DNA from: a bacterium
Lineage (GTDB): Bacteria; Cyanobacteriota; Vampirovibrionia; Gastranaerophilales; Gastranaerophilaceae
DNA length: 48,006 nt
Reading direction: 5' to 3'
Assembly (NCBI GenBank): GCA_017541465.1
Contig: JAFXYZ010000020.1
Coordinates: 1-48,006 of the forward strand
Each line of letters starts with the position of its first letter. The stretch's first letter is position 1. Position numbers and translations under genes: made by a program. The notes beneath the pieces are model-generated. The model saw only the letters and a program-made list of their open reading frames with translations, made no database searches and was not told the DNA's origin. Shown piece by piece: positions 4,364 to 48,004 of this stretch.

Positions 4364-5176
4364 TTAATAATTCATTTTCCAGCCTTCACGCATAATCTTT
4401 CCGGCACAAGTCCAACCACTGCTTGTTCCATTAGGATCACACTGTTCATCAACTGTTTCTTTTGTTTCATAAGGCCAACTTTTACTTGCAGTGTTATATT
4501 CACCTCCAGCAATATATGTCCCATCCGGCATTACATTATTCGTAAAAGGAAATAAATTAATTGAAAATAAATCTCTACCAATTTGATTAGGCTTTCTATG
4601 TCCATTTACATCAATATCAAAACAAATACAACGAGTTTTATTTTCTATACATTGATCAAATAATTCAATATACATTAATGAACCATCATTCAATACAATT
4701 TTATAATAATTGTTTGATACATTATCATAAATAGCTCCCTCAACACCATTAATCTTTTTATATTTTGTATTTTTAGGAAAACAACCTTCACCTGTACTAT
4801 AACCACAATTTTTTGAAATTTGTAAATATGGCAAAATATACTTTTTTATAAAAATTTCTCTTGTTTCATTTGTAGTAGCAGAAGAAAAATCCCATGTATC
4901 AACCGGACCGTTATCCATTTGACTTTTTTGCATAGCCTGAGAAATAACAGAATAATTCTTTTTAAAGGCAGTTGCAAAAGCCTCATTTCGATATTGTTGA
5001 ATCATAGTCGGAACAGTTATCGCTGCAATAACGCCAATGATAACAAGAGTTATCAAAACTTCTGCGAGGGTGAAGGCGTTTGCTACCCTCTCCGAGGGAG
5101 AGGGGCTGGGGGAGAGGGTTGTACTTTCATTTATTTTAACCCTACGGGCAGAACCCTCTCCTAAATCCTCTCCCAT
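4364..5176 (-). CDS. Type IV pilin-like protein (pilin 1); C-tract puts it out of frame with its true start
   Basis: Prepilin with the class III-like motif (A)FTLAEVLITLVIIG at about residues 34-48, a single hydrophobic N-terminal helix, then a polar head with paired cysteines and the motif DVNGHRKPNQIGRD shared by all four pilins here. It is expected to be cut by prepilin peptidase before F and to assemble in a pilus or pseudopilus. The ATG at 5176 lies inside a repeat hairpin and has no ribosome site. The natural start is ATG 5258, preceded by AGAGAG and a promoter matching those of pilins 2 and 3. From that ATG the nine-C tract (5219-5227) leads to TGA after 14 codons; eight C would join it to this frame. 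Either a phase-OFF gene or a frameshifted one. Confidence 0.8.
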   Translation of the reverse strand: MGEDLGEGSARRVKINESTTLSPSPSPSERVANAFTLAEVLITLVIIGVIAAITVPTMIQQYRNEAFATAFKKNYSVISQAMQKSQMDNGPVDTWDFSSATTNETREIFIKKYILPYLQISKNCGYSTGEGCFPKNTKYKKINGVEGAIYDNVSNNYYKIVLNDGSLMYIELFDQCIENKTRCICFDIDVNGHRKPNQIGRDLFSINLFPFTNNVMPDGTYIAGGEYNTASKSWPYETKETVDEQCDPNGTSSGWTCAGKIMREGWKMNY

Positions 5177-5183
5177 AGAGAGG
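5086..5183. repeat. Inverted REP doublet inside pilin 1 leader
   Basis: Two palindromic units face each other. 5086-5121 has stem CCCTCTCC/GGGAGAGG followed by tail CTGGGGGAGAGGGTTG. 5151-5183 is the opposite orientation, with tail GAACCCTCTCCTAAAT and stem CCTCTCCC/AGAGAGG. Read on the minus strand the doublet is translated, in the pilin frame, as part of the leader (it gives the ESTTLSPSPSPSERV stretch). The architecture matches the doublets in pilins 2 and 4 and the repeats around the DUF559 gene. Confidence 0.75.
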
Positions 5184-5218
5184 ACTTTAGTATTAATTAC
5201 ATAATCATTTATTTCATA

Positions 5219-5227
5219 GGGGGGGGG
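5219..5227 (-). repeat. Homopolymeric C9 tract in pilin 1 reading frame
   Basis: Nine G on the plus strand, read as nine C in the pilin message, 12 codons after ATG 5258 (codons GTT CCT A + C run). Nine is one too many to reach the pilin frame; eight or eleven would be in frame. Confidence 0.85.
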
Positions 5228-5291
5228 TAGGAACTAAGTCATTTTTTCTTGTAAACATAACTATCTCTCTTTCTCTAAAGTATTTAATAAT

Positions 5292-5320
5292 ATATTATCA
5301 AATATTCCCAATTTTGTAAA
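5292..5320 (-). promoter_or_regulatory. Conserved pilin promoter (pilin 1)
   Basis: Minus strand: -35 TTTACA (5315-5320), 17-base spacer, extended -10 TGA-TAATAT (5292-5297). The spacer is almost identical to those of pilins 2 and 3 (GGGAATATTTGA shared). A REP-like palindrome sits just upstream at 5336-5359. Confidence 0.75.
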
Positions 5321-5335
5321 TTTATAACATTTTTT

Positions 5336-5359
5336 GTTGGGCAGGAATGCCCAACTTAC
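5336..5359. repeat. REP-like palindrome upstream of pilin 1 promoter
   Basis: Stem GTTGGGCA/TGCCCAAC with foot GTAAG on the minus strand. The copy plus the following ~60 bases is an inverted duplicate of 13939-14006 upstream of pilin 2. Confidence 0.85.
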
Positions 5360-13938: not shown

Positions 13939-13962
13939 GTAAGTTGGGCATTCCTGCCCAAC
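13939..13962. repeat. REP-like palindrome upstream of pilin 2 promoter
   Basis: Foot GTAAG and stem TTGGGCA/TGCCCAA. It matches 5336-5359 exactly in inverted orientation and 40462-40487 with one extra loop base. Confidence 0.85.
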
Positions 13963-13977
13963 AAAAAATGTTATAAA

Positions 13978-14006: not shown

Positions 14007-14072
14007 AAATATTAATCAGAGAATTAAGAGAGGTTTTTAGTATGTTTAATTTCAAAAATAAACTTGTTCCTA

Positions 14073-14081
14073 CCCCCCCCC
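14073..14081 (+). repeat. Homopolymeric C9 tract, in frame (pilin 2)
   Basis: Nine C after GTTCCTA, eleven codons from the ATG. With nine the upstream ATG is in frame with the pilin domain (reads VPTPPLQN). Confidence 0.85.
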
Positions 14082-14134
14082 TACAAAATTATTTAAAATA
14101 TATTTCGCTATGGAAAAACAATATAAAGGATTTT

Positions 14135-14224
14135 CCTCCCCTTGATAGGAGAGGTCAGGAGGGGTGTCGATTCAGAAATAATTGTTTATTCAACCCTCTC
14201 CCTAGCCCTCTCCCCAGGAGAGGG
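14135..14224. repeat. 90-bp inverted REP doublet inside pilin 2 leader
   Basis: 14135-14166 has stem CCTCCCC/GGAGAGG then tail TCAGGAGGGGTG. 14191-14224 has tail CAACCCTCTCCCTAG then stem CCCTCTCC/GGAGAGGG. The order is hairpin-tail...tail-hairpin. The 90 bases keep the reading frame and are translated (PPLDRRGQEG ... NPLPSPLPRRG). The same doublet, also 90 bp, is in pilin 4. Confidence 0.8.
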
Positions 14225-14861
14225 AACGTGTTGGGCTTCACTCTCGCAGAGGTTCTTATAACTCTCGTTATCATCGGTGTTATTGCTGCAATAACCATTC
14301 CGAGTTTAATCAATAAAACAAATAATTAGGAAACAATATCAAGGCTCAAGAAAGCCTATTCTACAATGGCTCAGGCAACAAACCTGATTATTTCAGAAGA
14401 AGGTCCTGTAAAAACCTGGACTACATCTGCTGATAATATATTTAATCTATACAAAAAAAAATTATTCAATGCAAAAGAATGTGGATCAAGTTCTGGTTGT
14501 TTTAGCGGACCATATAAATATCCAAGTGGTTCCAATACTTCTAATTGGAGTACTAGACAAGATTTTTATAATTTAGTTCTATCTGATGGAGTAATTATAG
14601 GTTTCGGTGGCGATAATACTGAGTTTAAGTCAAGTTGTGACTTAAATGTCGCAATATCGGGAGATAACAATGTTTGTCAAATAATTGTTGTAGATACAAA
14701 TGGAAGTAAAAAGCCAAATACGGTTGGAAAAGATACATTCATGTTTATTTTAACAGAAAAAGGTCTTCTTCCTGCAGGCTGTCAAAATAACAATACTTGT
14801 CCAGGAGCAGGATTCGGTTGCACTTGCAGAATAATCAGAGAAAGTTCTGTAAAATATATGT

Positions 14862-14885
14862 AAATGTCAGGCAATACCCGACATT
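14862..14885. terminator. Hairpin after pilin 2
   Basis: Stem AAATGTCRGG/CCCGACATTT around GCAATA, directly at the pilin stop codon. It resembles the GTCAGGCA palindrome at 103-123. It could end the pilin message, although no long T run follows. Confidence 0.45.
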
Positions 14886-32564: not shown

Positions 32565-33321
32565 ATGTTTAATATAAAAAACAAATCAGTTCCTACCCCC
32601 CCCCTACTTCTTTTACAAAAGAAGTAGGCAAGAAAACTTTCGTAGTTTTTCAAGTTCTATCAATAATTTACTAAATCATTGTGATGGTAAAAGTAATGGT
32701 TTCACTCTTGCAGAGGTTTTGATAACTCTTGTCATCATCGGAGTAATTGCAGCAATAACTGTTCCTACTTTAATTAATAAGACTAATAATCAGGAATATG
32801 TATCAAAATTAAAAAAAGCATACTCAACTCTTGCACAGGCAACTAACTTGATTATTGCGGAAGAAGGTCCAGCTACAGAATGGGCAACATCTCGAAGTAA
32901 TGTTTTTAATCTATACCAAAAAAAATTAGTAAATGCTAAAGTTTGCGGAACGAGTTCAGAATGTTTACCACAGGGTGGTTTTTATAAGAAATTAAATGGT
33001 GATATAGATACATATAATGTTAGTTCTGAAGCATACCATAAACTTGTATTATCAGATGGTGTTCAAATTATTTTTAGTGATGCAACAAATTTATGCAATA
33101 TTAATTTTGGTTATACAGAGAATCCTCAATATTGTGCAAAAATTTTTATTGATATAAATGGAGCAAAAAAACCAAATACAATGGGAAGAGATTATTTTGG
33201 TTTTGCTCTAAAAAAGAATTCTTTAGTTCCTATGGGATGTGAACCCAGTGCAAATTGTGAAACATCTGCTGGAAGTATTTGTACCTGCAAAGTTCTTCGC
33301 GAAGGTGCGATAAATTATTAG
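32565..33321 (+). CDS. Type IV pilin-like gene (pilin 3), out of frame by one C
   Basis: ATG 32565 has the family promoter and ribosome site and begins MFNIKNKSVPTPPL. With nine C the frame ends at TAG (32625-32627) after 20 codons. The pilin frame (GFTLAEVLITLVIIG, then a 180-residue head with paired cysteines, DINGAKKPNTMGRD and a C-terminal CTCKVLREG) is open from just upstream of the C tract to TAA 33321, but contains no ATG, GTG or TTG before the TTG inside EVL. One C fewer would join ATG to the pilin with a leader of about 45 residues. So it is either phase-OFF or frameshifted. The head is close to that of pilin 2. Confidence 0.82.
32596..32604 (+). repeat. Homopolymeric C9 tract, out of frame (pilin 3)
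   Basis: Nine C after GTTCCTA. Eight or eleven would connect the ATG to the pilin frame. Confidence 0.85.
32604..32627. repeat. Perfect palindrome in pilin 3 leader
   Basis: 11-bp arms CTACTTCTTTT/AAAAGAAGTAG directly after the C tract. It is a different repeat family from those in pilins 1, 2 and 4, but inserted at the same place. Confidence 0.7.
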
Positions 33322-47152: not shown

Positions 47153-48004
47153 TTATTTTTTTAAGTAATCTTTAAAATCAACTTTTCTGCCGTTTATATT
47201 AACAGGTGCTCCATAACCAATACAAACCTTGCCTCTTTTAAGGGCATTATCTTGTTCATTTTTATTATCAATAGCAAAGTAAACAATACCATCTACTCCT
47301 AATAGAAATGAAAAAATATCTTTACCAATTAAGTTTGGACCTTTTTCACAATTTGTATCCACTGAAATATGTGCATCATCGAACCCTATAGCCCAAGCCG
47401 ACCAACATATTCCATCAACTGTTACCCAAGAATATCTTTGGGCAAGTAAATTTTCCTGATCAGGAATAACGCCATATCTTTCATATTCTTTAGGCCAACA
47501 ACCGTCATCATTTACACAAGTTTTTATAACCTTCATCTGTTTTTTAAAGGCTTCTGCTCTGCCATCTCGAGCATTTACATCTCCTGTTTCCCCTGAAGGC
47601 CAATTGCAGCCAGACCAACCACCTTTTTCTGTATATTGTCCCAAATTATCATAAGCTGCTCTTTTCCAAGCTTCACTGGCAACCTGATAGGCTTTTTTGA
47701 AAGACGTTTTGTATTGTTGTTCTCTGACATTATTCATAACTGTCGGAACGGTTATTGCCGCAATTACACCTATAATAACGAGTGTAATCAAAACCTCTGC
47801 GAGAGTGAAACCCAACACGTTCCCTCTCTGTGGGAGAGGGCTGGGGAGAGGGTTGAATACCCCATTATTTCTAAACAGACACCCTTCCTGACCTCTCCTA
47901 TCAAGGGGAGGAAAACCCTTTATATTGTTTTTCCATAGCGAAATATATTTTAAATAATTTTGTAGGGGGGGGGTAGGAATGAATTTATTTTTGAAATTAT
48001 ACAT
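47153..48004 (-). CDS. Type IV pilin-like protein (pilin 4), C-tract in frame
   Basis: A 283-residue prepilin. From ATG 48004 the leader MYNFKNKFIPTPPLQN, nine-C tract, REP doublet (NPLPSPLPQRG) and VLGFTLAEVLITLVIIG are almost identical to pilin 2. After about residue 90 the head is different (six cysteines, VDTNCEKGPNLIGKD as the shared motif, ending KVDFKDYLKK). Its ribosome site and promoter lie beyond the window. Prepilin peptidase should cut before F, discarding a leader of about 70 residues. This is the only one of the four that is both in frame and free of stops. Confidence 0.88.
   Translation of the reverse strand: MYNFKNKFIPTPPLQNYLKYISLWKNNIKGFPPLDRRGQEGCLFRNNGVFNPLPSPLPQRGNVLGFTLAEVLITLVIIGVIAAITVPTVMNNVREQQYKTSFKKAYQVASEAWKRAAYDNLGQYTEKGGWSGCNWPSGETGDVNARDGRAEAFKKQMKVIKTCVNDDGCWPKEYERYGVIPDQENLLAQRYSWVTVDGICWSAWAIGFDDAHISVDTNCEKGPNLIGKDIFSFLLGVDGIVYFAIDNKNEQDNALKRGKVCIGYGAPVNINGRKVDFKDYLKK
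47822..47911. repeat. 90-bp inverted REP doublet inside pilin 4 leader
   Basis: Two facing units: 47822-47855 (stem CCCTCTC/GAGAGGG, tail CTGGGGAGAGGGTTG) and 47880-47911 (tail CACCCTTCCTGA, stem CCTCTCC/GGGGAGG). Length and layout equal those of pilin 2. Confidence 0.8.
47965..47973 (-). repeat. Homopolymeric C9 tract, in frame (pilin 4)
   Basis: Nine G on the plus strand, read as nine C after ATTCCTA. In frame with the pilin domain. Confidence 0.85.

Follow-up and report, generated by a model that had tools for sequence, protein, structure and literature searches.

A cytosine tract in a prepilin leader and its genome-wide counterparts suggest translational phase variation of pilins in Gastranaerophilaceae

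The gene referred to here as pilin 1, on the minus strand of a 48,006-nt stretch of Gastranaerophilaceae DNA (the window, meaning the whole stretch that was analysed), carries a well-placed start and an intact pilin in two different reading frames, with a run of nine cytosines between them. This raises the question of whether the gene is broken, starts elsewhere, is read by a programmed shift of frame, or is controlled by the length of the run. From comparison of the locus with its sister genes we infer, with a probability of roughly 0.85, that these genes are subject to translational phase variation by slipped-strand mispairing.

The features of pilin 1 and of the three other pilin genes of the window are collected in Table 1. 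The promoter of pilin 1, TTTACA-N17-TAATAT, runs on the minus strand from position 5320 to 5292 and precedes an AGAGAG site and ATG 5258; the earlier note had also given this ATG a promoter and an AGAGAG site. The frame read from this ATG is MFTRKNDLVPTPPL; it has ten head codons, reads MFTRKNDLVPT and runs into the tract, and with nine cytosines translation meets TGA after 14 codons. The other frame, YEINDYVINTKVLSMGEDLGEG...ANA/FTLAEV (the slash marks the prepilin cleavage site), is open through to the pilin stop at 4364; from the tract onward the pilin frame reads YEINDYVINTKVLS...ANA/FTLAEV... and lies one base out of register with ATG 5258. Reading of the tract itself bore out the proposal that pilin 1 is out of frame by one cytosine and that eight would join the head to the pilin via the leader. 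At C9 the gene would accordingly be off, and one cytosine fewer, or two more, would turn it on. An intergenic palindrome of the GTTGGGCAGGAATGCCCAAC type recurs close to pilin promoters, at window positions ~1–30, 5338–5358 and 13940–13965.

Table 1. Positions of pilin gene features in the window
Feature	Position	Strand	Basis
Pilin 1 promoter, -35-like hexamer TTTACA	5315..5320	-	sequence reading
Pilin 1 promoter, -10-like hexamer TAATAT, 17 nt from -35	5292..5297	-	sequence reading
Pilin 1 Shine-Dalgarno-like AGAGAG	5265..5270	-	sequence reading
Pilin 1 start codon and truncated leader ORF in the C9 state (ATG 5256-5258, 14 codons, TGA 5214-5216)	5214..5258	-	
Pilin 1 C9 homopolymeric tract, 31 nt past first base of ATG	5219..5227	-	
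Pilin 1 leader, tract to prepilin cleavage site, with inserted repeat hairpin (arms ~5100-5120 / 5152-5172)	5075..5218	-	
Mature pilin 1, 236 aa plus stop, begins FTLAEVLITLVIIGVIAA	4364..5074	-	TIGR02532 over cut-off, structure model, profile matches
Pilin 2, tract C9 at 14073-14081, in frame across tract; TAG 14327-14329 in mature part	14042..14863	+	
Pilin 3, tract C9 at 32596-32604, out of frame	32565..33321	+	
Pilin 4, tract C9 at 47965-47973, in frame, mature part 218 aa	47153..48004	-	

The product has the hallmarks of a type IV pilin-like protein, namely, a prepilin cleavage/methylation motif and a long N-terminal helix. Pilin 1 scores 18.0 bits against TIGR02532 (cut-off 16.3) and 21.1 against Pfam N_methyl, slightly under the cut-off of 21.2, while its profile matches the PilA, PilE1, geopilin and GspG chains of solved structures. 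The structure model (mean pLDDT 88) comprises a 53-residue N-terminal helix (residues 3–55) and a beta-rich head, and an alignment of 61 mature proteins revealed an invariant FTLAE..IT.VI.G...A start and conserved cysteines. A Foldseek search of the PDB with the model returned no significant match, and VIA-align 2 superposed pilin 1 on PAK pilin with Z 4.9 over 121 residues, no higher than unrelated rows; in these two comparisons the head has no clear solved counterpart. A single prepilin peptidase gene was identified (PF01478, G000:C61:3737-4081, 38.5 bits, over cut-off), and a published single-cell genome of Gastranaerophilales has pilA, pilB, pilC, pilT and pilD (PMC5877343).

Exactly four runs of at least eight cytosines occur in the window, each of them C9 and each located inside a pilin leader; 8-mer matches to C number eight, against a mean of 0.31 in shuffled sequences. 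At this common length pilins 1 and 3 are out of frame and pilins 2 and 4 are in frame, since the length of the leader after the tract differs. The earlier note had read the four genes as two off and two in frame at equal length, and the frames are as it claimed, although pilin 2 proved to be truncated by an in-frame TAG 30 codons into the mature part, where a sibling gene reads CAG, so that this gene is not an intact ON copy.

The same design recurs throughout the genome to which the window belongs, a draft assembly (G000) of 2.1 Mb in 74 contigs in which the stretches around pattern matches were scored by script. It contains 78 prepilin motifs of the FTLAE type and 40 TTCCTACCCCC sites, both with no matches in reversed controls, and 56 ATG-N28-C7 sites against five for the control. 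A pure C7–C10 tract lies in the leader of 65 prepilin genes, 64 found by the script and one (L178) added later; further copies (L079, L085 and L369) are cut by contig ends. As is typical of contingency loci, the repeat is placed in the coding region near the 5' end, exactly 31 nt from the ATG in 55 of the 64 script-scored copies. A promoter-like block ends 31–37 nt ahead of the ATG in most of these copies, and a GAGA-type site precedes nearly all of them. The shortest consist of an ATG, ten codons, C8 and then YNKA/FTLAEV, and because they show this bare design, the tract is regarded as a part of the prepilin leader itself. Among the long C runs seen in this genome only L023 and L067 are clearly outside pilin leaders.

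The second typical trait, a tract length that joins or breaks the frame of an intact gene, is equally evident. Script scoring of the 64 copies gave 24 ON, 38 OFF, one with a stop in the leader and one without a visible start; with L178, which is ON, a start can be read in 63 copies, of which 25 are in frame and 38 out of frame. This proportion does not differ from the one third expected under free drift of tract length (binomial p 0.29). Four genes whose tracts are degenerate, being interrupted or lost (L179, L180, L320 and L366), are all in frame (Fisher p 0.03). Leaders with flanks that are 90–96% similar differ in tract length and state: of three copies that share one repeat, L017 is in frame at C8 and pilin 1 and L069 are out of frame at C9, and L027 is ON at C9 while L025 is OFF at C8; these are differences between paralogs, with a single genome per species, in a draft assembly where homopolymers may be miscounted. 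The leader repeats share common ancestry and the copy counts are not fully independent. The proposal that stochastic switching is the best reading, formulated on the four genes of the window, thus gains support from some 65 copies genome-wide, from which tract length would be expected to change between cells. Exchange between pilin cassettes by recombination at the tract was also weighed, and no finding requires it.

The pilin 1 leader, open in the pilin frame, contains the start chosen by gene callers (ATG 5174–5176), from which a product of 270 aa would be made. If this were the real start, the head and tract would be untranslated or a decoy. The earlier note had placed this ATG in a repeat hairpin lacking a ribosome site, and had let its reading depend on translation not beginning there; the hairpin around 5176 folds with an RNA z-score of -2.75, and no ribosome site was found ahead of the codon in the window sequence. 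Nor is the codon conserved, as siblings carrying the same repeat read TGG (L017) and GAG (L069) at the matching position. No in-frame ATG, GTG or TTG occurs between the tract and the cleavage site in 42 of the 64 copies, and an in-frame ATG is present in only eight. ATG 5176 is thus best regarded as an accident of the repeat, because the siblings lack it and most copies have no downstream start at all.

Further evidence against a downstream start comes from the leaders themselves, since such a start would leave the openness of their inserts unexplained. In 63 of the 64 copies no stop codon interrupts the pilin frame as far back as the tract. Additional sequence of 80 to 200 nt, often derived from repeats, separates the tract from the cleavage site in 42 copies. 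Within these long inserts the pilin frame is open to the tract in 41 cases and the other two frames in none, while shuffling predicts 2.9; as the repeats are mutually related, the 41 do not represent 41 independent events. This bias is hard to explain unless ribosomes cross the tract in the pilin frame, and initiation downstream of the tract consequently appears very improbable. The earlier observation stands, because the frames, the position of the gene-caller start in the hairpin and the location of all four C9 runs of the window in pilin leaders agree with it. Small hairpin repeats (CCCTCTCCC...GGGAGAGG and others) occupy positions 5075–5190, with counterparts at the corresponding site in about 40 other copies; the inserts stay open in the pilin frame and give prepilin leaders of up to ~80 residues. 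They resemble the in-gene palindromic elements of Rickettsia.

It might also be supposed that the pilin family has expanded and that its out-of-frame members are pseudogenes in decay. Some decay does happen, because pilin 2 and L017 have nonsense codons and L082 a stop codon in its leader. However, the two truncated mature frames, the only ones among the scored copies, both belong to ON copies, while the mature frame is of full length (201–240 aa) in all 38 OFF copies, which also retain promoters and ribosome sites. The pn/ps ratio is about 0.5 and equal for OFF-OFF, OFF-ON and ON-ON pairs, indicating the same constraint in both states, although this is a rough test because synonymous sites are near saturation. 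Judged from these sequences, the OFF copies do not appear to be decaying, and their origin as pseudogenes is the least probable of the explanations considered.

Close relatives of pilin 1 were not found in named genomes with pilin 1 as the query. With the conserved N-terminus as the query, 80 loci were recovered from named genomes, mostly of Candidatus Gastranaerophilales; among them the nearest relatives with a name are gut and rumen genomes of this group. In the named relatives 27 of 90 pilin motifs have a tract of at least seven within 300 nt, and the pilin frame is open to the tract in 25 of these 27. Across the family, a run of at least seven cytosines lies 5–35 nt from a prepilin motif in 32 of 276 genomes (8 of 41 genera) and a G run lies by the motif in 53 of 276 (13 of 41 genera), counts that are minima owing to the limit on the gap. 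A chance origin of the combination of tract and motif was rejected, as the reversed-pattern controls, for C and G runs alike, gave 0 in all 276 genomes. In a phylum-wide sample the G version was detected in 38 genomes of the family and, among the matches listed, in none of 216 genomes of other families. Contigs C35 and C86 of one relative, G121, have runs of C16 and C22 ahead of prepilin motifs, far above the lengths in the genome of the window.

The G tracts include a second design. Three relatives, G208, G010 and G040, were initially candidates for the same C-tract arrangement and were rejected because the runs lie on the opposite strand and are poly-G; matches to the ATG-N28-C7 pattern are skewed towards long tracts if the ATG is closer (28 nt) or lies on the opposite strand, and ON/OFF counts from samples of this kind were excluded. 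At loci L088 to L147 of G208 and G010 (genus g11; for example L089 and L118), poly-G11 lies in a separate short ORF (ATGCAAAAA...AATTTC-G11) before the pilin, which has its own ribosome site and ATG. A terminator-like hairpin, GCCGTGCC...GACACGG, is located between the two. With eleven guanines the short ORF ends 8 nt beyond the tract, and in the next frame it extends past or near the hairpin in most copies; this sample was selected for at least 11 G, and its lengths are biased accordingly. The arrangement looks like phase-variable attenuation of the kind described for pil1 of Streptococcus gallolyticus, in which GCAGA repeats act through a leader peptide (PMC3894217). There too a phase-variable leader ORF controls a pilus, matching the layout in G208 and G010; the difference from the genome of the window is that the short ORF of pil1 is separate and precedes a terminator, while here the tract lies in the leader of the pilin itself.

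A third possibility is that the DNA length is stable and RNA polymerase or ribosomes slip at the C run in a programmed manner, so that a fixed fraction of product enters the pilin frame with no genetic switching. Such slippage would account for out-of-frame copies that are intact and conserved, and for three relatives (G266, G206 and G118) in which the sampled tracts are nearly all of one length and in one wrong frame. This last pattern is not predicted by free drift alone; a default-off arrangement with rare ON cells, of which the reference genome of Bifidobacterium breve is an example (PMC9187656), would produce it, and programmed slippage would do so equally. In the genome of the window, however, the frame already fits in 25 copies, and the OFF copies miss it in both directions (remainder 1 in 24 and remainder 2 in 14), which counts against programmed slippage because a programmed shift would fix one direction. 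Tract lengths also vary, from C7–C10 in this genome to C11, C12 or C13 among seven copies with a near-identical flank in G060 and to the much longer runs of G121. Programmed slippage is accordingly considered unlikely.

Under phase variation by slipped-strand mispairing, pilin 1 would be one of many scattered prepilin genes, each of them a translational contingency locus. Transcription and translation would begin at the upstream promoter and ATG, and the first ten codons would lead into the C tract, which encodes prolines in the leader of the prepilin. Mispairing during replication of the DNA may add or remove a cytosine. At a fitting length the leader would join the pilin frame, prepilin peptidase would cut before FTLAEV and the pilin could assemble, presumably into a pilus; at any other length translation would end within a few dozen codons, so that the protein would be made only in the right frame and the OFF copies would yield none. 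In living cells such slippage may serve to vary the cell surface.

The closest functional parallel is provided by the opa genes of Neisseria, about 11 scattered genes with CTCTT repeats in the coding sequence of the leader peptide (PMC3745409). As in that system, many scattered paralogs carry a repeat in a leader that is later removed, the frame is set by repeat number and the genes would switch independently. Membership of the opa family was rejected, the tract being poly-C instead of CTCTT and the product a prepilin instead of a barrel, and the likeness is one of working only: the opa repeat is a pentamer and its product an outer-membrane barrel, while here a single base is repeated ahead of a type IV pilin-like protein with a class III leader, at several times more loci. 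Sortase-pilus genes of Bifidobacterium breve (bbr_0113 and bbr_1889) contain G tracts whose length in the reference genome breaks the frame, and the pilus is made once the frame is joined (PMC9187656). Pilin 1 similarly has a G/C homopolymer between the start or signal part and the pilin body, is out of frame in its assembly and has a downstream start, chosen by gene callers, that lacks a ribosome site. The present genes are not members of that family, which is defined by LPXTG pili, and comprise about 65 loci for type IV-like prepilins against two loci in a Gram-positive organism. In Neisseria meningitidis deep sequencing confirmed 115 repeat-mediated contingency genes, with homopolymers of at least eight forming the reliably variable class and G/C runs dominating the strong candidates (PMC5084427). 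Those genes span many families, unlike the present case, in which nearly all long C runs serve one protein family.

The kind of switch is already known, and what appears to be new is the host group, the protein family and the number of loci. A search of open-access papers, with subscription papers and preprints outside its range, found none coupling Gastranaerophilales with phase variation, and none of the open-access papers found treats these pilins. We think it rather likely that Gastranaerophilaceae, gut relatives of the cyanobacteria, possess a contingency system that ranks among the largest known for a single protein family: each genome would have tens of prepilin genes, all with a separate G or C switch in the leader, in a poly-C or poly-G form and in more than one leader design, including a short-ORF attenuator in one genus; each cell would then display one of astronomically many pilin combinations. 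If this is true, an uncultured and common gut lineage varies its surface on a Neisseria-like scale, and gene callers mis-start such pilins or call them truncated. Genome assembly may be affected as well: five contigs of G000 (C22, C32, C37, C50 and C61) start or stop no more than some tens of bases away from a C tract, and several contigs of relatives likewise start shortly ahead of a pilin, so that assemblies seem to break at the C tracts and shared leaders.
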